This document shows positions 15,411 to 29,701 of a stretch of 64,000 bases of DNA, piece after piece. Made by a program: the position numbers and the translations under genes. Location of the stretch: the NCBI RefSeq assembly GCF_019649055.1, contig NW_026570285.1, positions 620,001 through 684,000 on the forward strand. The letters are read 5' to 3'. Under the pieces are notes generated by a model. The model did no database searches. It saw nothing but the letters and a program-made list of their open reading frames with translations, and was not told where the DNA came from. The DNA comes from Paramacrobiotus metropolitanus. Lineage: Eukaryota; Tardigrada; Eutardigrada; Parachela; Macrobiotidae. The first letter of the stretch is position 1. The number at the start of each line of letters is the position of its first letter.

Positions 15411-16512
15411 CGCACCATCAGGCTATGACAGGTTCCAAAAAAGCCTGCACAGTGATTTTTTTGATTATGTATTTGCAGTTGTAAGGCACGTTTACCGAAT
15501 TACGATTGTGAATTATTTCTAATTGCCTCGCGACAGGCATTACTGCAGACGCAACTGGTGGCAGTTTGTCAAAGTTTTTGTACGTCGCACTTTATACTGT
15601 GATTTTCACTCTTTGATTAAGCGGGCTATCGTCGACATTTGATCGAGCATACATCGTCACGCCGAATGCACATTGTTGTACTAATCGCACAATGCAACTG
15701 CCCATATTCGTGCGCAATAATACAAATGCTTAATTACACTGAAAGCTCCTATGAAATGCTGCCAACGGAAATCACACGTACGGTAGGTGTGGGAATTATT
15801 CATGAGAAAATGCGGAAAAGAATTGAAATGTTTTTTTAATTACTGTGCTGTGGGTACATGGACTTCGTAAGGATATTAGCAGTTTCAGTTTACGGGCCGA
15901 GGTTGTATTCCTGCCACAAACGGACTGCAGAATCGAAACCAGCGAATTTCCCTGATCTCCAGAGTAGAAGCGGCTTTGCTAAATCGGGAAAGGTAAAAAA
16001 AAACAGTGCCGTAACGTACAATACAGAATACATTATAACAATATCATCAGCTACTTTATAAATAATCTCGTGAAGTATCACATGTACCGCGATATACAAC
16101 ACTTCCCGCTATAGAGTCATGTTTCACGATAACTTCCCCTCAACGCGCTTAACTCCGCATTGTACAGTAATGCGTACCGTGTGTAGTTCTAAGGCCATTG
16201 GCGCAACGTACCCAGGCAGCAGGAATACCACAATTAATCTGGCGCACGGAAGAGAAGTTTTCACTATAAAAACTGCCGATTAACGTACGAAATTCCAGGG
16301 AAATCTGTGAGAATCAGTGAGATGAACCATCGTTATTTTGTTGGTACGTATTCTCTATCTCTTGCTTTTGAGTTGGGCCGGGGCGGCCCGAAGGATCACG
16401 CCCATATCGACGGCGGTATACCTGTCCGAGCTGGTGAGCAGGAAGTCCGGTAAGAGACCCTCGGTGGTGCGGATGTACATCCCGTTCCAGTGGTTCCACG
16501 CGGAACATACGG
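15411..16512. other. Intergenic; one possible small coding exon at about 16340-16512
   Basis: Most of this stretch has no recognisable feature. At 16340-16512 (plus) a frame without its own ATG reads as a hydrophobic leader (LYLLLLSWAGA) followed by protein-like sequence (VYLSELVSRKSGKRPSVVR, MYIPFQWFHAEHT). It is interrupted by the foldback element that starts at 16513. It may be an exon of an unrecognised secreted protein; support is thin. Confidence 0.3.
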
Positions 16513-17176
16513 GCACCGCGACATTTCGCCGCCGACAACTCGTCGCAGGACTTTTAGTCGCAGACATTTCGCCGCAAGGCCATCTCGTCGCGCGACTTTC
16601 CGTCGCACGGCAGCTTCGACGCAAGCAAATTTTGCCGCAAGGATATCTCGACGAAGCGACATTTCGCCTATCGGATAAATGATTTACTGAGCTAAATAAA
16701 ACAGTCAGAAAATGGAAAACTAAAAAACAAAACCAAACGAAACCTAAAAACCTAAGAAAAAAACCAAAGAAAACCTAAGAAACCTAGGAAACCAAAGAAA
16801 CCTAAAAAACTTAACAAACCTAGAAAACTTAAGAAGCCTAAGAAAATTAAGAAACCATAAGAAGACCTAAAGATAGTCTAAGGAACCTAAAAAAACTAAG
16901 AACAAGCCTAAAAAAACTGAAAATCTAGTGAGAATTAAGCGCGGTGAATTAGTTTTGCGGCGAGTATTCGCATCGTTCGAAAAGTCCCGAAACGAAATGG
17001 CCGCGACCAGATGTCTTGCGTCGAAATGTCGCAAAGGTAAAATGTCTCAAAGCATAATGTCCGAAGCCGAAATGTCCAAGCGTGCGAATGTCCGGTGGCG
17101 AAATGTCTTCATGGCGAAAAGTCGCGCGTCGAGTCTGGGTGCGGCGAAATGTCACACTTCCCATTGTCCGGGTGCG
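16513..17176. mobile_element. Foldback/MITE-like element, copy 1 (about 664 bp)
   Basis: The left part is built of degenerate GACATTTCGCCGC words and the right part of their reverse complement GCGGCGAAATGTC. The ends are GCACCGCGACATTT on the left and, reverse-complemented, GCACCCGGACAATGGG on the right. The centre (16700-16920) is an AAACCTAAGAA-like A-rich minisatellite. Copy 2 at 35854-36425 has the same architecture and near-identical left end. No coding capacity, so non-autonomous. No clear target duplication is visible around this copy. Confidence 0.75.
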
Positions 17177-18299
17177 ACGCAGCATCAGCGACTGGTTGAC
17201 AAAACAGGGAAAGTGACTACAACATCGTCGCTCACGCTGCTGATACAGCTTCCATGTTGCATCTGTATAACACATTTAATTGGGAATGCCATTAGAGTAG
17301 TGCGGGTGCGAACTTGCCTGGAGAAACGCAGCTGACTGTACAAATCGACACCAGTCAGAATGCACGCCGACGGTTCATTTAAGGACATTTTTTCTACGTC
17401 TTGTGAGCATTCCTGGTTTTCAGGAAAGTATCGTATCCCGGTACATGGCATCACATTCGTCTACATGCACAAAAACTTCGCTTTCTCGCACCCCCAAACA
17501 CTTGTTTGTTTTGTTTTATGACATTCTCTAGCCAGGTTCTTTGGATATACATTGGCGTGAAAACCGTTTGTGCACGCAGCAACCGGTTCGGGAGTTATGG
17601 CTGTAAGGAAATTCCAAAAAGTTCAAACGCATTCCGGCGTACCAAAAGTCTCATTTTGCACCGATCTGCTTTAAATTTCGCACTTAAATGTACGTAAGTA
17701 TGAAAATCGTTTTTACACCGAATCATGTTTTTCAAATTTTACCATGGATTTCAACAATTATAAATTCATTTAAAAAAATATCAGAACGGTGGTCCCGTGT
17801 AAAAACCATGATCAATGATCTGGTAGGTCACTTTCCTTAAGAACGAAACATAATAATATGACAAAAAATCCACAGCCGCAGTCTCACAGATATGCACTGT
17901 CCGCACCTAGCAATTGTGCGCACCCATGATTTGAACTCCACACTCACGATTTGTGGACGTAGGCTTGCTGCGGTAATCGGTAGCCAGGCAACCCGCGGAA
18001 AAAATATCCACCCAGTGACCCCCTGCTCATTACATCTTGAAGAGCAAAATAAGGAATATACTTACTTTAGTGTACTTACCTATATGAAAATAATCCGGGC
18101 TTTGCGTTGCTACTTGTATGCTACACAACTAAGGACCCATCAATACAAGTTACGCCATGGCCGAACCCACAATGCGGCGATTCGCTGCCGCGCAAATTAG
18201 ATCTGTGCTTGGGTGAGGGCGGTGCCAAAAATGCATACTCGTAAGAGCCTTACGCGTATGTATGTAACTCCACCCCCTAGCATGCATACATACACGAAA
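17177..18299. other. Intergenic, nothing recognised
   Basis: No ORF with a domain, no tandem repeat and no RNA gene was recognised here. Short frames (17185-17454, 17506-17697, 17892-18200) have no supporting features. Confidence 0.45.
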
Positions 18300-18715
18300 C
18301 TGATCGAACTGCCAGTGGATCTCGAAATTTCAAACGCTCGTCTTTCGTTTATTTCTCAACAGAACTTCCAAATCGATATATCAAAAGATAGAGTATTAAT
18401 TTTCAAACTTTTGACAGTGGAAATCTATGGCAAATGAAGAAAGTTATGGCTGTTTTAGTTTCTCATAGACTTAGCATAGGATGCAAGCAACGCCTCCTCA
18501 CACGGGCCTATGCTTTGTTTACGAGAAACCAAAACAGCCATAACTTTCTTGATTTGCCATAGATTTCCACTATATACCAAAAAGTTTGAAAATTAATTCT
18601 ATCTTTTGATATATCGATTGGGAAGTTCTGTTGAGAGGCAAACGAAAGAAGCGTGCTGCAAGTTTTGGGGATTGACTGGCAGTCAGGTCGGCTACTTATG
18701 TGTTTATGAGCGAGC
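18300..18715. repeat. Long imperfect inverted repeat (hairpin element), copy 1
   Basis: The arm at about 18300-18480 pairs with the arm at about 18507-18710 around a short spacer. The best-matched part is 18340-18480 against 18507-18655: GTGGAAATCTATGGCAAAT on the left, and its reverse-complement counterpart ATTTGCCATAGATTTCCAC on the right. Arms extend outward with decreasing identity through an ACTGCCAGT box. A related structure lies at 20495-20990. It could be a MITE with long TIRs, and a transcript would fold into a long hairpin. Confidence 0.8.
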
Positions 18716-19369
18716 TGGTCACATCTACACGCGCGCCGCACACCAGCTCGTTTTAAGCCATACGCACAAACCAATTTCGACGGCCGGAAGTCTTACTTAT
18801 ATAGACGGGTGCAAACTTATGTGACATACAAGTTGCAACGCAAAGCCCCTAATATTTTAATGCGTTAGTCGTTACGGTGCGCTGCCAAAAAAAGGGTTTA
18901 GATTCGCCACTGGGCCTCTTGCAAATCATGATAGAGCCTGTGTAATTTGAAATCATGTGTAATTTGAACACCTAAGTACGTTTCCTACGAAATTGTTCAA
19001 TGTAAAGCAGCTGTTCAATATTCGTAGTAGAATTCGCAGTCTACGAGACACTACGGTTCCTAACTTCCTACCCTGGTGTTCAATATTCGCAGATGTTCAA
19101 TCTCCCAGAGTTGACTGTAGCAGGAATGATGCGGCCAAATAGCGCTGGAAGGCAACCACTGGGCCTGGACGGTGCTGTCATGGAAGTCCACGAGGAAATC
19201 CTGTCCTTTGAACTGGCTTTGGTCGTCAATGGGGGCTGGGATACGTGCAGGACGTCAAAGTAATGTAATTAGACACCCTGCCCGTATCCCAGCCACCATT
19301 TTTGCACCACCACACACGGCCCTGTCAGCAGGGCGCAATCCGAGGAAAACCGAGAAACGGCTGAAAAAT

Positions 19370-19441
19370 GCACCGATGGGGGCATCGAACCCCGGCTACG
19401 TCGTTAGATCCGCGGTAGGCAGTACCACTGCCCCACGGCGC
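19370..19441 (-). tRNA. tRNA-like sequence (probable pseudogene or SINE head)
   Basis: On the minus strand a 72-base stretch has an A-box-like TGGGGCAGTGGTACTGCC, a perfect B box GGTTCGATGCC, and ends that can pair in 6 of 7 positions (GCGCCGT with TCGGTGC). A TTTTT run follows, as in a Pol III terminator. The anticodon stem does not pair well and position 33 is not T in the best fold, so a functional tRNA is unlikely. I assign no amino acid. Confidence 0.4.
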
Positions 19442-19683
19442 AATACGCTGAAATCATATGAAAGACTTTATCGCTGTACGTGAGCCGCTTCTCTCCTTAC
19501 AGCCCGTAATGGGCTTCCCGCGCACCCGACCACATCTCGCGAAAGAAGCGCTGCGTGGTGCTGCCAAGACAACGGAGAGGGATAACAGAACACAGAGAAC
19601 ACCAGACAACTTAATAACCTACTTATAACTTACAGTCGCGACCCACTAGTCAACTACCCAGCAGAATGCCACTCATTCGGAGG

Positions 19684-19706
19684 GCAGGCACACGCGGAGG
19701 AAAACT
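19684..19706 (+). repeat. Left terminal inverted repeat of the KDZ-like transposon
   Basis: The 23 bases start GCAGGCACA and end GAGGAAAACT. They match the reverse complement of 29667-29689 at 20 of 23 positions, with mismatches only at positions 10-12. They sit 4 bases inside the element edge, the same offset as on the right side. Confidence 0.85.
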
Positions 19707-19744
19707 TTTTCTATGACATTCCCAGTGTAGGTGTAGTGTGACCA

Positions 19745-20140
19745 CTGCTCAATTATAGCCAATTACTGCCAATACTGATCAGTATAGCCCAATATTTGCC
19801 AATATTAACCAATGCTGCCCAATAGTGGTCTCTATTAAGCAATATTGCCCAATAAAGGCCAATATTAGCCAATACTGCCCAAATAATGACCAATATTAGC
19901 CAATACTGCCCAATAATTACCGATATTAACCAATATTGCCCAATAATGGTCTATATTAACCAATAATGCCCAATAAAGGTCAATATTAGCCAATACTGCC
20001 CAATAATGACCGATATTAACCAATATTTCCCAATAATGGTCTATATTAATCAATAATGCCCAGTAGAGGTCAATCTTAGCCAATAATGACCGATATTAAC
20101 CAATAATGGCCAATGTAGGTCTATACTAACCAATATTGCT
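19745..20140 (-). repeat. Left subterminal array of ~30-bp units
   Basis: Units read CCAATATTAACCAATACTGC then CCAATAATGA with variation; about 13 are visible. It is the reverse complement of the right array. Copies here are more diverged than on the right. The array starts about 40 bases inside the terminal inverted repeat. Arrays like this are candidate transposase-binding sites. Confidence 0.9.
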
Positions 20141-20494
20141 ATGTGATAATGTATCACAGCAACATGGAAAAAAAGTTCAAACAACAACCAATGCGAGGAA
20201 CTCAGTTTGTGTACTGGAACCTCTAAAAACAAATTTATTCAGCGTTTTTATTATTGGAGATACCTGAAAATATTTAGCACCACAACTGTCAACATCCAGA
20301 TTTTATTGAACTGAGGACTGTGGTACTCCATACAAGCTTATTTCAATTCTAACCGGATACTGCAGACTCAAGCGACTCCGCCTGAGGAAATCAAGGTAAG
20401 GTCAACAGTAATGTTCAACCTTTCGCTTACGAAGGCACTTTTTCCGGGTGTAAATTTAAAAAAATCACATATTCTTTCGTAAAACGATTTGTAC

Positions 20495-20990
20495 TCGTAG
20501 TATACTACCGCTTACAGAATACACTTTCACGTTCCGTCCACCGGTCTGCATTAGTAAACTCCCCTGCGCGCGATTTTATTTCCTACGTAGCACAGCTTTC
20601 GCTTACTGTTAAATCTACATCATTCGCTCACTTCAAACGCTCATTCCCCATGTATTACGGAAAGATATCACTCAACCAATGTACTAAAGGATGCAGAAAA
20701 AATTTACAAGATTTTTGATTTTAGATAAGTGGAAATTTATGGCGAATAAGAAAAGTTGTAGTCATTTTCTCGTTTGCTCGTAGACAGACCATAGAATCTC
20801 TGCGTGGAGCTCTTTGCCGTTTATTGTATGCTTAAGCGCACGACAAATCGCCGACACTATAACCTAAAGATTTCCATGAATTGCCACTTACTTATAATCG
20901 AAAAATTTATGATTTACTAATGCAGACCAGTGGTCGGAACGAGAAAGTGTATTCTGTAAGCGGTCGAAATGCGAGTAAAAGCAAAGTGTG
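20495..20990. repeat. Imperfect inverted repeat inside the transposon, hairpin copy 2
   Basis: The arm CCGCTTACAGAATACACTTT (about 20510-20560) recurs inverted at about 20925-20975, with the CTGCATTAGTAAA boxes also paired. Inner parts (GTGGAAATTTATGGCGAATA near 20735, and its inverted match near 20880) resemble the hairpin at 18.3-18.7 kb. It is a second member of the same hairpin family, located in the transposon's left non-coding region. Confidence 0.7.
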
Positions 20991-21621
20991 CCTGTAACAG
21001 TCTTGCAGTGCTATGTACGGCGCTCGTTAAATTTTTGTTTGCATACCTCTTATTGTCCATGGCAGATGAAATAATTTTGCCTTTCACGTTCCCATGAGCA
21101 TTACATAATAATGTTATTATATTAATTTATTGTATGAAGTCGTGCTTTTACGTGTAGCTGAGCATGTCAGATGTGGTGTTATTTACAAAACAGCGGAAAA
21201 CTAGGATAATGCACGTTCTTGGTACAGTCAAGCGAGCGAACTAGTCAGAACTAGTTACCAATTCCGATTTTAGATTAGGTTACCGATTTTATTCGTTCCC
21301 ACTATCGGCTTAGAAAATCAACTAAAATCTTACATGTTATATGCATCTTAGCAGAACAGAAAGCATAGTTAACTTTCATGGCGCATTGGTATTTGTTACC
21401 AAAGTAACTTAAATGTAAGAACTAAGAACGATGAGTCGCTAGAATAAAATAAAGCTCTGCAATAAAACTCAATATAACTTTGTTTTATCACACAAAAAAT
21501 TTTTTGCTGACGGAAAAACGGCTTCGCAATTCTCGTAACCAAAAACTCAAGCCGCATAATAACTTAAGAATAAAACTTTGTTTTACAACCCAGAAAATCC
21601 GTTCACTAACGCAGGTTTCCG

Positions 21622-22161
21622 CTAGTGTCCTAGGCACCCGGGGCGGGCGCCAATTATTTCCACATGGGAAACAATGACTTCATAGGTGTCGTTGCAGCAG
21701 CGGGGTTCGTGCGATCCTGGTGTTTTAGTACGCCGACCACAAGGGATTTTTCTTTCAACAAACAGACAGCCGCATTCCCAGAACACATGATAGTTTCCGC
21801 AAAAACAACCTGCTGCTGGGTTCTCGATAATCCGCATTAAATGAAAATTTTCTCGGGCCACAGCGATTCGTTCTTGAGGTACCGGAACAGGCGGCAGACC
21901 GGGGTGCATGTCTGCAACATTGCCTACCCGATGCTGCGGGCAATTCCCAGCTATTAACAGAGGACTGTTCCGAACAGGATAACGGCGGTGACAACATCGA
22001 GCCGACGCTCCGATAATCTCCCCCCTTAGACAGGGCATTCGAAAATCTGCATAAATGCACCGGCACTGGGCCCATCGTACGTGATAGACTCCGCAGTAAC
22101 ACTGAGCGGGGTTTCCCACGACTCGGAAAACGTGAAAGTCTAATCTTTGAATGACATTCAT
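21622..22161 (-). CDS. Cys-rich protein with two tandem repeats, transposon-borne
   Basis: A single-exon frame of 179 residues starts at the ATG at 22159-22161. It consists of two ~75-residue repeats with the shared pattern NPA-x-CxCG-x-YHV-x-W-xx-CxC-(9-10)-PC-(13)-CC-xxxY-x-V: first NPAQCYCGVYHVRWAQCRC, then NPAAGCFCGNYHVFWECGC. The spacing of Cys/His suggests zinc binding. I do not recognise the family. It lies head-to-head with the ATPase gene (start at 22580), about 420 bases away, so the two may share a bidirectional promoter inside the transposon. It could be a DNA-binding accessory or regulator, but that is inference. Confidence 0.6.
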   Translation of the reverse strand: MNVIQRLDFHVFRVVGNPAQCYCGVYHVRWAQCRCIYADFRMPCLRGEIIGASARCCHRRYPVRNSPLLIAGNCPQHRVGNVADMHPGLPPVPVPQERIAVARENFHLMRIIENPAAGCFCGNYHVFWECGCLFVERKIPCGRRTKTPGSHEPRCCNDTYEVIVSHVEIIGARPGCLGH

Positions 22162-22579
22162 TAGCAATCAAATTCGAAGAATAAAAGATAAAAAAGTAAA
22201 TCGAAAGGAACTTTAGTTAATCAAATTCGAAAAATAAAAATAAAAAAGCAAATCAAAAGGAACATGTAATTTTAAACATCGTTGCCGTCCATTTTGTCCG
22301 AAAACAACCAATGACCACTTACGCTGACCGTAAAGCACTGAGCACTCGTAGAAGTAGTATGGGAAATATGGCAAACAAAAAAAGCGCTCACAATCTAAAA
22401 TACCCGGATCTTAATCGGCATACCAAAAGCCAGTTGTTAAGCGGTGGCTGCCTTTTAGTATGGGTTCTTGAAGTTTTTTCTAAAATACGGAATGGTAGTA
22501 AAAATGTCATATTTGTTAAACACTGAAATTGTGACTTCCTTTTTCTCTTCTTAATTTCAGAGATCTTGTAACCAGCAAG

Positions 22580-25500
22580 ATGACGCGATCGCGAGACTCC
22601 GACGATGATGAGACCGATTCAGTGCTGAATCGCACTAAACGGAAGACGGAGACCGAAGAACAAGCCGAGGTAAATATGTAACAATTTTTAGAAATTGCAA
22701 AACTTGCGTGATTTACTGGCAGTTTAGAGTGTTTATTTGAAATTAAATTTTGGTTTAAACTACGGTTTAATATCGGCGAACTGTTTCAGGATCATCCCGA
22801 ATTTTCTGAAAGGCAGGATGAAACGGGGAATTTCGAAACATTTGTCATCTTGAAGAACAAAAAAAAGAATCGGAAGCTTTTTGCTAATTTTGTCCTCCAC
22901 CTAGACTACCTACTGATCTGCCAGTCGGAGCCAGCACGGGGCGGATGGCGGGTGACGGTTGTCAGCTCCTCCGCCAGGAAGCAGATGTAACTTCGCTTGT
23001 TGTTTAATTTTTTTATGGAATTGCTGCAACATTTAACGTTGTTTTTAGTGTATTGGCTGTTCCCTCCAGCAACCTGGCAAACGCCGAGGCTTTCGAGAGA
23101 TACCTTAGAACCGACGCTGAATTAGCAGCGCGCGGCGTGGCTATTAGTGAACGGAAGTATTACAAAGAATACATAATGCAGAAGCAAAAGGAGTTCTATG
23201 TGTAAGTGAGCTACAATTCGGCTAGAAAATCTAAATGCTAATATCTGATAATATAATACTGGTATTTATTATCATTTTCCATAGGAAGCACGGCCAGTCC
23301 CTCGACAAAAACATTGTCAAAAAACTCGGCATGCAACATGATGGCAGAACAATTATTCTTGGCCCCAATTCGATTGGTACGTACACCGGAGACGACGAAT
23401 CCATGGAGTACCATCCATCAACTTTTCCGGGCAGCCAGTTTTATTGGGACAATTCAGTGGGCCTACCGGATTTTGCTGCAAAATTTGGTGGTCACGGTTC
23501 CGAGATGTTTCTTTTAATCAAGGAAAATTTTTCAAGTGATTTTGCCTTGAAGTTTTGCTCGTTACTGGGTAGGTTTTGGGTTTATGTAAAACTGCAACGC
23601 TCAAACTATTTTAAAGGCTCCCTTAACATTGAAGTTTTTTTGCAGGGGCGGTATTGGAACCACTTCACGATTCGATGATACGAAATGACTTGTCTCTTGC
23701 CGTGCCGGTTTTGTGTATTTTCGGCGACACTAGATGTTTCAAATCGAAAATGTGCGAATGGGCATCATCTATTTTGGGCTACCTCAATGATAAGGTCAGC
23801 GCATTCAGTCAGATGAATTTTAACCGGACCACATGGGCTGGTATAAATGTAAGTTTTTGTTTTTTTATTTACTAAGCTTTTAAATAATAATTATTGTGCT
23901 CAAGTACGCTCGCTAAAGAATACTTTGAATTGGAATAATTTGAATTGGTGTCTCTATAGATCGTCAACCAAATCCATGATTTTGCCGTGTTCTGTTTTGA
24001 CTTGGACCCTGATACTATGGTGAAGATGGAGCTGAGGGTCAAGCAGTCATTCGATGGCGGTAGTTCCGTTACGAACAACGGGATCAAAGATGCCGGAAAT
24101 CCGTTAATATTTTGCTCCAACAAAAAGCCGATGCATGCCTTTTTGAACGGAATTGAGTAATATTGACTTTTTAGTGAGTTTGTTTAAGTTCTTATGGCGT
24201 TGTTTTTCAGAGAATCCACACGGGAGCGGCTTGTACTTTTCGAACAACCCAATCCGTTGCGAGACGGCATCGTTTTCACCCAAGAACTCAAGACAAAGTT
24301 CAACGAAGCCCGACGGAATTTTTCGAACAACCTTACTGTGTTGGCCAATCCAGCGTCGAATAACCCTATCAAAAGAATTTTGAAACACCATTTCGAAGAT
24401 TTTCGAAGCCGTTTCACAGATATTTTGGCAGAAAGTGGATTAGGATTGCAACGTTATAGGCTCGCGGAGTCATATGCGCTTTACGCAGCCTTAGGAACTG
24501 CTGTATATCACTATTTACCTGAAGACGCAGACGCACAGTTTAATACATTTTTATTTTAGATATATCATACTCTGGATGCTAGCAGCGGAGGCACGACGTC
24601 CATTGAAACCATCAAAAGCATGTACACAAAGTACTTCCAAAATTTTCAATGCCGCACTATTCTGCAAATCCAACTGAGCAATGAGCCATCACTGGATAGT
24701 CCTTTCGGAGGCGTAGCCAGTCATTTCGTTGAGCTTATGGTTGCTTACATGCAAATTAAACAGGTGGGTTGTTTTGAATGTCTTGAAATAAATCTTTACT
24801 GTTTTCTTCCGTGTGAACATTTGCCGGCAAATAAGATGGTATTACAGGATTGGCATAAAGCATTAACATGGCCAGTTAAAAACAATTCCCTGGAAAAGGA
24901 ATGCGTCGGCGTTAGGCTTACCCACGTTTATGCTTTTTTGAAAATCAAAGAAGCGGTCAATGAAGTCCTTGCACCACTTCTGAAAAAATGTCCCGAGGAA
25001 GCAATGGAACTGTGGTGCAGTGGGACAGTGAACGGCAGAAAGAAGACGCTAGCGAGCACCGTGAATGGGTTCTGTGATGGGATACCTTATCATGGGCGTT
25101 TAATCCCATTGGAGTACTTCTCTAGCAGCTGGATTCTCGTGGAGAACGGTAAAAACTTTAAAATGTTAAATAAAAAATGAAAAAATTTATTTGCTATCGA
25201 AAAAGGTAAACAAATAGTTTATCCAACAGAGGCTAGCCGTCAAAACCATATTCCCAAAGAATTGAAGTGCTTTTCTACGAAACAAGCTCAGAAGCGGGCA
25301 AACTCCAAGTAAGTATTGCGAAGTTCATATACATTTTTTTTATTGCAGTCGTTTCTATAATGGTCGTCTTTCAGAGCACTTCCAATAACCGGCGCGGAAG
25401 AAAGCGAAAAAACGGGAACCCCAAAAGTATCATGTCATAACTTTTGTCTCTATGAGCACCGAATGCTATAAACATTTCCCTTTTAGGAATCGGACACATC

Positions 25501-26340
25501 GGGCGCCTCGGATCCTGCGCCTCGACAGCCGGATTTGAATGATGACAGTGGTACACCAGCGGCGCAATGCAACGGGAATGGAGCTGTCTTGGTATTATCT
25601 TACAAATTTTGTATAATTATATCAACAATTTTGCGCTTTATATAGACTTTATTAATTTTTAGAAATCCTCCAGCACTGCGACAACAACGAATACACTTGT
25701 TCCTCGACAGCCGGATTTGAACGCTGGAAGTGATGCATTTGTGGCGGAATGCAGCGGAAATTCTACAGTCTCGGTAAAAATATCATAATCAAACAATGTT
25801 TTTACAAACACATAAACAGTTATCTGATATTCTGATACGAACTTAATATTTTGGCTCTTTTAATTGGTTTTTGTGTGGTCCCCAGCGTCTCTCGGCTCAA
25901 GAAACGGTTTGTCCCCCAAAGCTGCCGGCAAGCGAGCTAGTAGTTGCAGATGACATTGCAAAAACAATGGAAATCTTTGGCCTAGGTGATCACCATAGAA
26001 TGCTATCAGTCAATTATTTAGCTCATGAGTTTAAATTCTAGGTGACAACGCAGCGACTACCTGCAGCACGAGCGTCATCCCGAACGGAAGACGCGTTCTA
26101 CGTAAACCGATGCAATCTTCTAGCGAAATTGTTACACCAAAAGAAAAAGAACAGAGGAAGGCCGTCTGCGGGGTCTGTGAGAGAACGAAGCCTGGTTCTG
26201 CTAGAAAAGCAGGAGCAATGTTGCTGTGCCGAAAATGTCTGAAATGGATCCACAAAATCTGCACTGGACTGTCTTCCGCTGATTACGAGCTTTATTCCAC
26301 AGGAAATATGAAAGGATCGTATACTTGTGCTAACTGCTGA
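22580..26340 (+). CDS. SF3/DUF927-like ATPase with C-terminal PHD finger (15 exons), transposon-borne
   Basis: Exons 22580-22669, 22790-22986, 23049-23201, 23285-23568, 23646-23848, 23960-24156, 24211-24502, 24560-24763, 24848-25148, 25230-25308, 25375-25426, 25487-25591, 25663-25773, 25886-25985 and 26042-26340 give 889 codons with GT/AG at every junction. Residues 1-30 are charged. An ATPase-like core follows: a P-loop variant GDTRCFKS (268-275; the usual last Gly is Phe), a hydrophobic strand ending in acidic residues (AVFCFDLD, 318-325), and PLIFCSNKKP (357-366), which resembles the sensor Asn of SF3 helicases, followed by ESTRERLVLF. Residues 685-755 hold two similar PRQPDLN segments from duplicated exons 12 and 13. 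The C-terminus (about 831-888) is a C4HC3-like PHD finger (CGVC, CRKCLKWIHKIC, YTCANC). An upstream AG at 22559-22560 suggests a spliced 5' UTR. The role is probably in transposon replication or targeting; family assignment is tentative. Confidence 0.75.
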
Positions 26341-26512
26341 TTTTTTTGTTTTAAAGAAATATTGCATGTTCTGTTTTTGACGTCTTTCAAATGCTTGCTC
26401 TCAATAACAACGCTAACGAATTATAATAGGGAGATACTGCAATCACACTGTGTTAACTACTGCTGAAGGCGGTTACTTGTTTGATTAAAGTTATGGCCGT
26501 TATTTATCAACA

Positions 26513-28881
26513 ATGGCCGTTATAATGGCCTTAAATTTGTGGCCGTTATTCAGCGATCAGATTTACGATATTTGCGATAAAATTCAAACATTTGTTAGAA
26601 AAATGTCTCAACATGAAACATCTCGTGAAGATAGCTTATTTGAAAAGTTTGGTGCAACTGCAGTACGGAAAGCTGTTCGTGGACTTCAAATATGGCCGAA
26701 TTTTGAGCAACATTATGGCTTAATCACAAAGGTATTGTGCAACAAACACTTAAACGTTTCAACGCCTGCAGAAATTCTTTTTTAGAAATTATCTGACTAT
26801 CTGGAGCTTGACACCGCACGGCTTTTCGCGATCATGGAGGAAATCAGGAATACGTGTTTATTCCTCGTCCAACAATACACAAACATCCAAGCGGACCCAA
26901 TTATCTTACTGCCTCCAACGAATGTTTGTTTGTGGGGTTGCAAACAGAAGATCAAGAGCAGAAGCGGGGAGCCAGGCTCGTTGTCACGGCTTTATACAGA
27001 TCACGACTCTTCAGAAAGTGTAAGGAAATTTCTACAAATAAAATTTTGCAGAAGTATAAGAATCGAACATTTTTATTTTAGTGCACACTGAACGACATTG
27101 ACGGTTCGCAGAAAAAATGCTGGAAATTCTCGCTTTTGTGCAAACGCTGCGGCTCCCGCTATTCCTACGCTACTTATTCAGAGCCGACCTTGAAAGGCCC
27201 AGAAAATATTTCGCATTCCAAGCGGCATTTTTTCTATGACACTGAAAGAGCGTATGTAGCTGTGTCAAATGAAGTTTTTTGGACAAGGCGATTGTGCAGA
27301 CTCTTGACATCTGACATGTAAGGCATCATGTTTTTTTATTATTTATCTATTTTTATAGGAACCTTTTTGCAGTTACTGGAAACATTCCAGTTTTCAAGGT
27401 TTCGCAGCATCTATGGCTTGGAGTTATGCGATTTCGGAAGGTATTTTTGTCTATATCTGTGTTAGTTGATTCGCCAATCGAAAGATTATCTTTGATTTAC
27501 AGATTACAATCGAAAACAAACTGCCGAGGCCTTTTTTCGGTTTCACATTGAAGCAGAAATCCGTGAGCGAAGACTTTTGAAGACTCCATTTTCCGAACAT
27601 AACTACGATTTGCTCCTACCGTCTCTTAATGAGTGGAATCGGCAAAGTCTGTACCCCCACATCCACACCACTGAATGTCTCGCGAAGGGTTGCCGATTTT
27701 GCACTTCATTTGATGGAATTTGGAAACTTACACATTTGACCTGCTCGTTTAAAATAATAGTAAGCAGGCAATTTCTGCATGTAGCTGAAACTCCAATGGT
27801 AATTTGTTTAAAATAATAATACGATGTATCCGTTGCATTTTACAGACCAAAAACCCAGCTTTCGGGGATCTGAATTTTCCATCTGACTGCCCTGAAGAGC
27901 CCCTGCCAGGGCTTTTATTTTGTGGACGACATGCAGGTGTTGCCGCAGAAAACAATCTTCCATTAACACGCAAAGAGCTCAAGCTATTGACAAAAACTAA
28001 AGTCAATTCGAGTTCCACAGAAGTTACTGCTCTGTCGTTCTCGTCCTGCAACAAGAATCGGGGCTTGCGTAAATACAGAATTGCAAGATCTAGAGGTTGG
28101 CTGTTTGCTGTTTCTTCTGCTGGAATCATCCGGACGTTTCGACCGCTTTATGGGTAACATTAAGTAGTTATGGATAATTTGCACAGAGCGCGAAGCGCGA
28201 AGTGCTGCAATTTGCTGATTGCTAAGAGCATAAATTTGTCTAACACCACGAAAAGTGTCATGGCTTACTTTTCCAAACCACATACCCAGTACCATTACTC
28301 AGTGGTATTGGCGCTCGCGCTCGTGCAATGCTGTAGTTAACGATCACCGCTAGTATAAATTAAACCGCAAATTACTCTGCAGATCAGAATCTTCCTCTCA
28401 AGTTTTTTACGCAATGGCACAGTATTTGCTCCTGGAAATTGGAGATGACGAAAAGTGGACCGAAGAGGAACGGCGAAAATTTGTGGTTGCATATGATGAC
28501 ATTTGCCACGTTGATGGATTGCTGCAGGCAAGAAACGACTTGCCGTTTTCTGGGAGCGGAATCAATTTATGGCGAAATGTGGTCAAAATTATTGATCGCT
28601 TCCACATTGGAAATCACAAAAAGCAGTGTCAAAGTGTGTATAATCCGTCAAAATTACTTGACGTTCATGGTCTGAATTGCCAGTTTAACACTGAAACTTG
28701 CGAACAAGTCTTGTCTAAATTTGGTAAATACAAACAAAGCGCTTTCATGATGGGAAAGCAACGTCAAGAGTTTTTTCTGAATCGAATGGTTAAAATTCAT
28801 AATTCTATTGTGGAACAATCTTTAGCGCAAGGAAGAGAGCATCTGCATTTCAATGGTAGACGAAGATGTAACAATTTCTAA
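26513..28881 (+). CDS. CxC5/CxC6-KDZ-like transposase (7 exons)
   Basis: Exons 26513-26731, 26786-27019, 27082-27317, 27373-27440, 27503-27798, 27846-28153 and 28383-28881 give 620 codons. The acceptor at 27371-27372 is needed: the alternative at 27358 breaks the frame. Residues 130-230 carry a cysteine cluster (PPTNVCLWGC, LLCKRCGSRY) followed by an FFYDTERAYVAVS strand pattern, as in CxC5. Residues 300-400 have CLAKGCRFC and, after a Cys-Pro, FCGRHAG, as in CxC6. The last 200 residues have the KDZ-like catalytic layout: SRGWLFAVSSAG, YDDIC (Asp492), DRFHIGNHKKQC (Asp525) and NTETCEQ (Glu561), which I propose as catalytic acids. It starts 173 bases after the ATPase stop on the same strand. 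CxC modules are known as companions of KDZ transposases; family assignment is from memory of these patterns. Confidence 0.75.
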
Positions 28882-29070
28882 AAATTGCTGCTGTGTTGCG
28901 GATCTGTCCTCGTTACGAATTAAAAGGTCAACAATTTTAGCTTGATTGCTTTTTTTGGATCTGTCTATGTTATTAATCTAAGATAAAGGTTTAAAGCTAA
29001 AGCCTGTTCAAGTTAAAAGGTCGCCAGAATATCTAAAGTACTGGCTACTGGTTAGAAAGGCCATATATTG

Positions 29071-29580
29071 GGCAGAAGTGGTTAATATTGGTCATTATTG
29101 GTTAGTATAGGCTATTATTGGGCAGTATTGGTTAATATTGGTCAGCATTGGGCAGTATTGGTTAATATTGGTCGTTATTGGGCAGTATTGGTTAATATTG
29201 GTCAGCATTGGGCAGTATTGGTTAATATTGGTCGTTATTGGGCAGTATTGGTTAATATTGGTCATCATTGGGCAGTATTGGTTAACATTGGTCGTTATTG
29301 GGCAGTATTGGTTAATATTGGTCATCATTGGGCAGTATTGGTTAATATTGGTCGTTATTGGGCAGTATTGGTTAGAATCGGCCAATATTGGGCAGTATTG
29401 GTTAATATTGGTCATCATTGGGCAGTATTGGTTAATATTGGTCGTTATTGGGCAGTATTGGTTAATATTGGTCGTCATTGGGCAATATTGGTTAATATTG
29501 GTCGTTATTGGGCAGTATTGGTTAATATTGGTCATTATTGGTTAGTATAGGCCAACATTGGCCATTATTGGACAGTCTTG
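29071..29580 (+). repeat. Right subterminal array of ~30-bp units
   Basis: About 17 units of TTGGGCAGTATTGGTTAATA followed by TTGGTCRTYA. They alternate in a 60-bp higher-order pattern (GTCAGCA/GTCATCA against GTCGTTA), so recent unit expansion is likely. Long open frames through the array on both strands are artefacts of a period divisible by three. Confidence 0.95.
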
Positions 29581-29666
29581 GCTATTGGCCATAATCGTAT
29601 GTTTGTAGCCAAAATAGTTGTGAGAGTATTGGTTACACCAATACTAATCAATATTCACCGTTACAC

Positions 29667-29689
29667 AGTTTTCCTCCCTATGTGCCTGC
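29667..29689 (-). repeat. Right terminal inverted repeat of the KDZ-like transposon
   Basis: This is the inverted partner of 19684-19706, four bases inside the right edge at 29693. Beyond the edge lies the second CTCATTCG. Confidence 0.85.
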
Positions 29690-29701
29690 TATGCTCATTC
29701 G

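Follow-up and report, generated by a model that had tools for sequence, protein, structure and literature searches.

Proteins of the Kyakuja-Dileera-Zisupton (KDZ) family are transposases that insert with an 8-bp stagger. Target-site duplications (TSDs) of this length are described for Zisupton elements in PMC12730594. The KDZ transposases of Pristionchus comprise up to 1400 amino acids (aa), and no TSD was detected for the respective elements (PMC9297572). In tardigrades, Zisupton is listed in a repeat study, the main text of which does not mention Paramacrobiotus (PMC11071193). KDZ transposons can reach a large size, and accessory genes inside them were found described in fungi and algae (PMC12730594 and PMC12477816). 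We analyzed a 64,000-nt stretch of the genome of Paramacrobiotus metropolitanus, a eutardigrade of the Macrobiotidae. This stretch, in the following called the window, lies on the contig labelled C65 and contains an element of 10,014 bp (19680-29693). With a probability of roughly 0.7, the element is a complete, probably autonomous DNA transposon of the KDZ superfamily that encodes, next to its transposase, a partner protein that may serve in targeting or assembly.

The element has the CxC5 and KDZ domains, the multi-exon transposase gene, and the terminal inverted repeats (TIRs) of the Zisupton/CxC5 type. It differs from the members of this type in three respects, i.e. its transposase is short (606 aa, compared with up to 1400 aa in Pristionchus), it has a separate upstream partner gene, and the outermost bases differ between its two ends (GAG versus CAT), which was seen in five elements. 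Its 8-bp TSD is in line with Zisupton.

The earlier note, made from the sequence of the window, had proposed a complete 10-kb transposon at 19672-29701. The transposon is indeed complete, but the outermost 8 bp on each side belong to the TSD, i.e. an exact CTCATTCG at 19672-19679 on the left and at 29694-29701 on the right. The left TIR, of the “GAG” type, is GAGGGCAGGCACACGCGGAGGAAAACT (19680-19706, forward strand), and the right TIR, of the “CAT” type, is CATAGCAGGCACATAGGGAGGAAAACT when read inwards (29667-29693, reverse strand). Four bases inside the edges, the inner 23 bases of the two TIRs match at 20 positions, as had been claimed. The window contains 29,696 pairs of identical 8-mers at distances of 3-20 kb, and the pair formed by the two CTCATTCG copies ranks first of them all by its inverted-end score. 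A chance origin of the TSD and the TIRs was rejected, because the pair tops all others; the second and third best pairs (19/23 and 18/23) fall within the inverted arrays of the element itself. These subterminal arrays, also noticed previously, consist of a unit of about 30 bp and were recovered with Tandem Repeats Finder (TRF) and an inverted-repeat comparison. The left array (19769-20135, forward strand; TRF 19787-20085, period 30, 9.9 copies) and the right array (29079-29581, forward strand; 30-bp unit, 16.8 copies) are mutually inverted over up to 261 nt with 79% identity.

The transposase gene (26513-28881, forward strand; RefSeq LOC129593998) has seven exons. Its product comprises 606 aa instead of the 619 residues given before; an unspliced start further upstream is excluded because of an in-frame stop at 26486, and the RefSeq version has a later start and a length of 517 aa. 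Both diagnostic domains exceed the Pfam gathering scores, i.e. CxC5 (PF18718) with 43.1 bits versus 26.9 and KDZ (PF18758) with 39.5 bits versus 26.6, so that the suggested Zisupton/KDZ identity was borne out, and a CxC-type cysteine cluster is present N-terminal to the KDZ domain. The likewise suggested CxC6 yielded no Pfam match at E values of up to 10; CxC6 is one of several CxC types, and the KDZ superfamily does not require it. After splicing, all exons of the transposase gene (7) and of the upstream gene described below (15) are in frame, as stated in the earlier note, all 20 introns have GT...AG borders, and 606 and 896 codons, respectively, are open.

A search of 5.8 billion proteins, which reaches just those that share exact 5-residue words with the query, retrieved besides the KDZ protein itself a single relative, LOC129602237 (P0003 below), with 42% identity over 94% of the length. 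This protein is encoded by the same species on contig C367 (36,485 bp). Its CxC5 score is 36.2 bits (cutoff 26.9), while KDZ, with 21.1 bits, remains under the cutoff of 26.6. The acidic residues in DG.W, YDD.C, and NTE..EQ are invariant between P0003 and the KDZ protein of the window (P0002), and we infer that they are putative catalytic residues of an RNase H-like core. When P0003 was compared with its own genome, at least 91 matches at no fewer than 47 KDZ loci were obtained (77 of 149 candidates scored; matches within 10 kb clustered into one locus, which makes the number a lower bound). The genome therefore harbors a rich KDZ population.

The earlier note had recommended a search for further copies, and this retrieved related elements and ends, three of them with exact 8-bp TSDs of their own. 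Relatives in the same genome thus define the ends of the element, which is new in this analysis. Both ends could be read for five elements, i.e. those of the window and of contigs C57, C367, C19, and C49, and four of the five have exact TSDs, each with a different sequence. The C57 element (492,913-507,837; 14,925 bp) contains a KDZ gene and a homologue of the partner gene and is flanked by TAATAACA, the C367 element (4,609 bp) contains a KDZ gene and is flanked by CACCATAG, and C49 carries a 532-bp derivative flanked by GACAACAA, of which 27 of the first 28 bases (96%) match the left end of the window element. The C19 element (250,594-253,575) has a KDZ gene and two ends. Each of the five has one GAG end and one CAT end, and thus the outermost four bases of the window element differ by pattern and not by decay. 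The termini of the different lineages have GGNAGGCACA in common. The genome contains nine exact matches to GGNAGGCACACTTCSG, six of which are ends of the KDZ elements on C19, C57, C206, and C367. The right end of the window element recurs with 97% identity over 136 bp on C61 and with 87% identity over 90 bp on C29, which suggests that close relatives were mobile not very long ago.

Several further observations concern these relatives. By eye, a sequence near the C19 element resembles the left flank of the C367 element and continues past the C367 insertion point like an empty site. Among the end pairs listed, one at about 631.4 kb on C19 has three identical letters at both ends, unlike the GAG/CAT pattern. 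In the window element, the genes of the module are oriented towards the CAT end, whereas those of the C57 and C367 elements face the GAG end; the interior thus seems to be inverted with respect to the termini, possibly as a result of recombination between the arrays. The C57 element has an internal duplication of 2.4 kb (99% identity), which includes the 3′ part of the partner gene and the first KDZ exons, and between the two duplicates lie about 4 kb, in which there is a further long open frame.

The upstream gene (22580-26340, forward strand; RefSeq LOC129593993) has 15 exons and encodes a protein of 896 aa with a P-loop-like region and a C-terminal PHD finger. The RefSeq isoform X2 of 870 aa is 97% identical to our model; segments of 18 and 8 aa are absent from it, and two junctions differ. 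The PHD finger (26167-26337, forward strand), which had been recognized before, exceeds the Pfam gathering score for PF00628 (24), with 28.2 bits in the whole protein and 32.7 bits in the last exon. By sequence, the solved structures nearest to it are MLL1 PHD3 and Pygopus. An aromatic-cage tryptophan is typical of H3K4me3 readers; the tryptophan of the window PHD finger aligns with that of MLL1 PHD3, while MLL1 PHD3 has N-terminal tyrosines without a counterpart in the window. No family other than PHD reached its cutoff in Pfam or NCBIfam. Protein databases were searched with the upstream sequence by itself and with a two-row profile; among the best 7,995 and 7,994 candidates by shared words, respectively, only the protein itself was found, and distant relatives can be missed by such searches. 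None of 320 pattern stretches from viral contigs was related to it. Exons 12 and 13 (25487-25773) contain two PRQPDLN-type segments, and this repeat looks like an exon duplication.

The partner gene is not confined to the window, nor is it next to the KDZ gene by chance. The stretches around the KDZ gene were examined for the window, C57, C206, C367, and C19, using the matches listed and one comparison at E < 0.5. The C57 element encodes a homologue of the upstream protein (E 1.4e-21), again upstream of the KDZ gene and on the same strand. The partner proteins of the two elements are 34% identical in the aligned part and the KDZ proteins about 42%. All five junctions compared have the same intron phases (2, 2, 1, 0, and 2 for exons 2-6), and the lengths of these exons in the window and on C57 are 197/206, 153/153, 284/296, 203/209, and 197/191, respectively. 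Over 4.3 kb, the C206 copy matches C57 with 96% identity; just the end of the partner gene remains before its KDZ gene, and no left end was found within the 8 kb examined. On C7, an end is followed, in the same order, by a subterminal array and pieces of the partner gene, then by a cluster of PHD-like cysteines and the initial KDZ exon, after which the element is cut off. When each of the five partner pieces on C7 was compared with 200 shuffles, four exceeded them, unlike the PHD piece. The C7 cluster has the C-x2-C/C-x2-C/H-x2-C pattern, with a Pfam match below the threshold. C7, where the first KDZ exon alone remains, is outside the 47 KDZ loci. A further partner fragment, 50% identical to the window protein, is present on C222 (within 16001-20000) and adjoins reading frames that, by eye, resemble those of a retrotransposon. 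Whole-genome searches with the C57 partner pieces revealed no clear places beyond C57, C206, C65, C222, and C7 among the matches listed. Taken together, the partner protein has accompanied the KDZ transposase through more than one of the diverged lineages in this genome, and the C57 homologue and the pieces on C206 and C7 argue for an old module of KDZ gene and partner.

The RAG2 PHD finger is thought to dock the RAG1 complex on a chromatin state, Transib transposases generate TSDs of 5 bp, and MuB and TnsC are nucleotide-binding helpers of bacterial transposases. Like the window element, RAG1-RAG2/TransibSU is a two-gene transposon with a PHD-bearing second protein (PMC4411706). It differs in that the transposase of the window element is of the KDZ and not of the Transib type, its partner has no kelch match, and its TSD has 8 bp; the parallel is one of function, not of descent. 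For MuB and TnsC, the likeness is confined to the proposed role, since no sequence match was found and the partner in the window is eukaryotic, bears a PHD finger, and has an atypical P-loop. By analogy with these systems, a helper role of the partner is most likely, considering its P-loop-like region, its C-terminal half, which is helical in a low-confidence model, and its PHD finger. In the mechanism that we propose, the 606-aa protein with the CxC5 and KDZ domains serves as the transposase and, as expected from its family, would attach to the termini as well as to the subterminal arrays. It would excise the element and reinsert it by a staggered cut, leaving the 8-bp duplications that are observed. 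Through its P-loop-like region and its PHD finger, the partner may assemble on DNA together with the transposase and dock the complex on a particular chromatin state.

Several results weigh against the reading as a complete transposon with an element-borne partner. For the insertion in the window, a genome search with the joined flanks detected no empty site with the two copies of CTCATTCG merged into one, which the earlier note had proposed to look for. When the left 601 bases were used as a query, just the two ends of the element itself were listed, in a search that skips common words. The C19 element has no TSD, and the best agreement within four bases of its ends is 5/8. With one mismatch allowed, the terminal pattern has 72 matches in comparison to 12 for the reversed control; 44 of the 72 belong to the GGNAGGCTCACTTCCG family, leaving 28 after its removal. 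As judged by the flanks of the copies that were cut out, this repeat family looks unrelated to KDZ elements. Partner sequence beside a KDZ gene was detected at three of the 47 loci (window, C57, and C206), 47 being a lower bound. In the C367 and C19 elements, both examined over their whole length, a KDZ gene is present and no partner was detected; some KDZ elements of this genome therefore do without it. By eye, the reading frame of the C57 partner gene is apparently disrupted downstream of the position that corresponds to about residue 420 in the window. The PHD part of the window protein has no match in the C57 element at E values of up to 10, and the forward frames of that element do not contain the C-x2-C/C-x2-C/H-x2-C pattern. 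The score of the C7 cluster against the window PHD finger, 21.9 bits, equals the shuffle maximum of 21.9. Lastly, the AlphaFold models have very low confidence, with a mean predicted local distance difference test (pLDDT) value of 34.4 for the 870-aa upstream protein and 33.1 for the KDZ protein, which was modelled with one relative.

The alternative that retains most weight, although we regard it as clearly less probable than a transposition factor, is that the upstream gene is a counter-defence or cargo gene, e.g. for a modulator of chromatin or silencing. The PHD finger is compatible with a chromatin effector, and the gene is missing from the C367 and C19 elements. Moreover, an extra gene inside a KDZ element has counterparts, i.e. 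the TET/JBP dioxygenase genes of fungal (TET+) Dileera, Kyakuja, and Zisupton elements (PMC12730594) and the additional genes of many giant transposon families of the brown alga Ectocarpus, including KDZ (PMC12477816). In contrast to the fungal genes, the extra gene in the window has no TET/JBP match. In the window and on C57, as in the remnants on C206 and C7, it directly precedes the KDZ gene on the same strand, and a position that is conserved despite identities of 34% (partner) and about 42% (KDZ) is more like a long-standing module than recent cargo.

It appears rather unlikely that the upstream gene encodes an SF3-type helicase that replicates or unwinds the element. The earlier note had spoken of an SF3-like ATPase, a claim based on motifs seen by eye. 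SF3 helicases have a Walker A motif GxxxxGK[ST] and a motif C that follows the B motif and ends in [ST]N. The window protein contains the atypical Walker A motif GDTRCFKS (23723-23746, forward strand), which aligns with GPTISFKT in the C57 homologue, the common pattern being GxTxxFK[ST]. Next come a hydrophobic strand, in which one aspartate is common to both homologues, and an N-P-L-x-x-x-x-N motif. This order, from the P-loop-like motif via an acidic strand end (CFDLD) to NPLIFCSN, which resembles the SF3 motif C (NPLAYGCN in C57), is compatible with a helicase, and the low-confidence model places strands before the P-loop-like motif and at CFDLD and NPLIFCSN. However, both homologues have a phenylalanine in place of the Walker A glycine before the lysine, and of the acidic pair in the B-like motif, C57 retains just one residue. 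Sequence searches of Pfam, PHROGs, NCBIfam, and PDB revealed no SF3 or AAA+ match for the upstream protein. We therefore use the label “P-loop-like”, because the Walker A glycine is missing and no library match was obtained.

Host genes bracketed by chance KDZ ends, or domesticated transposon genes, are very improbable, since a homologous gene pair is found within the independent, TSD-flanked C57 element and the gene with the transposase domains is located between inverted arrays and a TSD, although a second intact copy was not found, both multi-exon genes are annotated in RefSeq, and the insertion is not brand new.

Nested inside the element is a multi-copy repeat of about 480 bp (about 20507-20987) with inverted ends of 52 nt (94% identity), the presence of which means that the window insertion is not brand new. 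Six genomic copies match about 400 bases of it at 79-86%, further partial copies exist, and no target duplication of the repeat was seen by eye. A dispersed repeat of about 180 bp occupies the left flank directly outside the element (19327-19505); with 40 of 343 candidates scored, at least 52 other matches at 89-94% were obtained, and it is perhaps a SINE-like (short interspersed nuclear element) or satellite unit.

The third gene proposed for the element, a cysteine-rich open reading frame (ORF) with two repeats, does lie inside it (21625-22161, reverse strand); its relatives, however, occur on contigs without KDZ matches. It encodes 179 aa from the ATG, with two C-x-C-[GA]-x-YH-type repeats, and has no Pfam or NCBIfam match. 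Its best relative (51%) is on C346, in 20 kb of sequence that contain neither a KDZ nor a partner gene, and weaker relatives with one such repeat each are on C141 and C250. None of these three contigs has a KDZ match among the P0003 genome matches listed, and the ORF was not found in the examined stretches of C57, C206, C367, and C19. The distribution of its relatives argues for a passenger, and the ORF is probably a captured gene of a host family or a passenger gene.

As judged from its sequence, the element belongs to the KDZ superfamily, and its partner gene is apparently undescribed, since no KDZ element with an ATPase-like or PHD-bearing partner was found among the titles and abstracts of open-licence papers that the literature searches listed. 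A more far-reaching view, which is tentative and which we consider doubtful, is that KDZ transposons of animals evolved a two-subunit recombinase independently of RAG, with a nucleotide-binding partner whose histone-reading PHD finger picks the target chromatin and a partner family so far seen just in these tardigrade elements. An animal two-gene KDZ module that persists across diverged lineages and includes a PHD-bearing protein would be a second case, beside RAG1-RAG2, of a transposase that travels with such a partner. Whether partners of this kind steer insertion to chosen chromatin can thereby be tested outside V(D)J recombination, in an unrelated system, for which the ends, the duplications, the 532-bp derivative, and the intact gene pair are the parts list for an excision assay.

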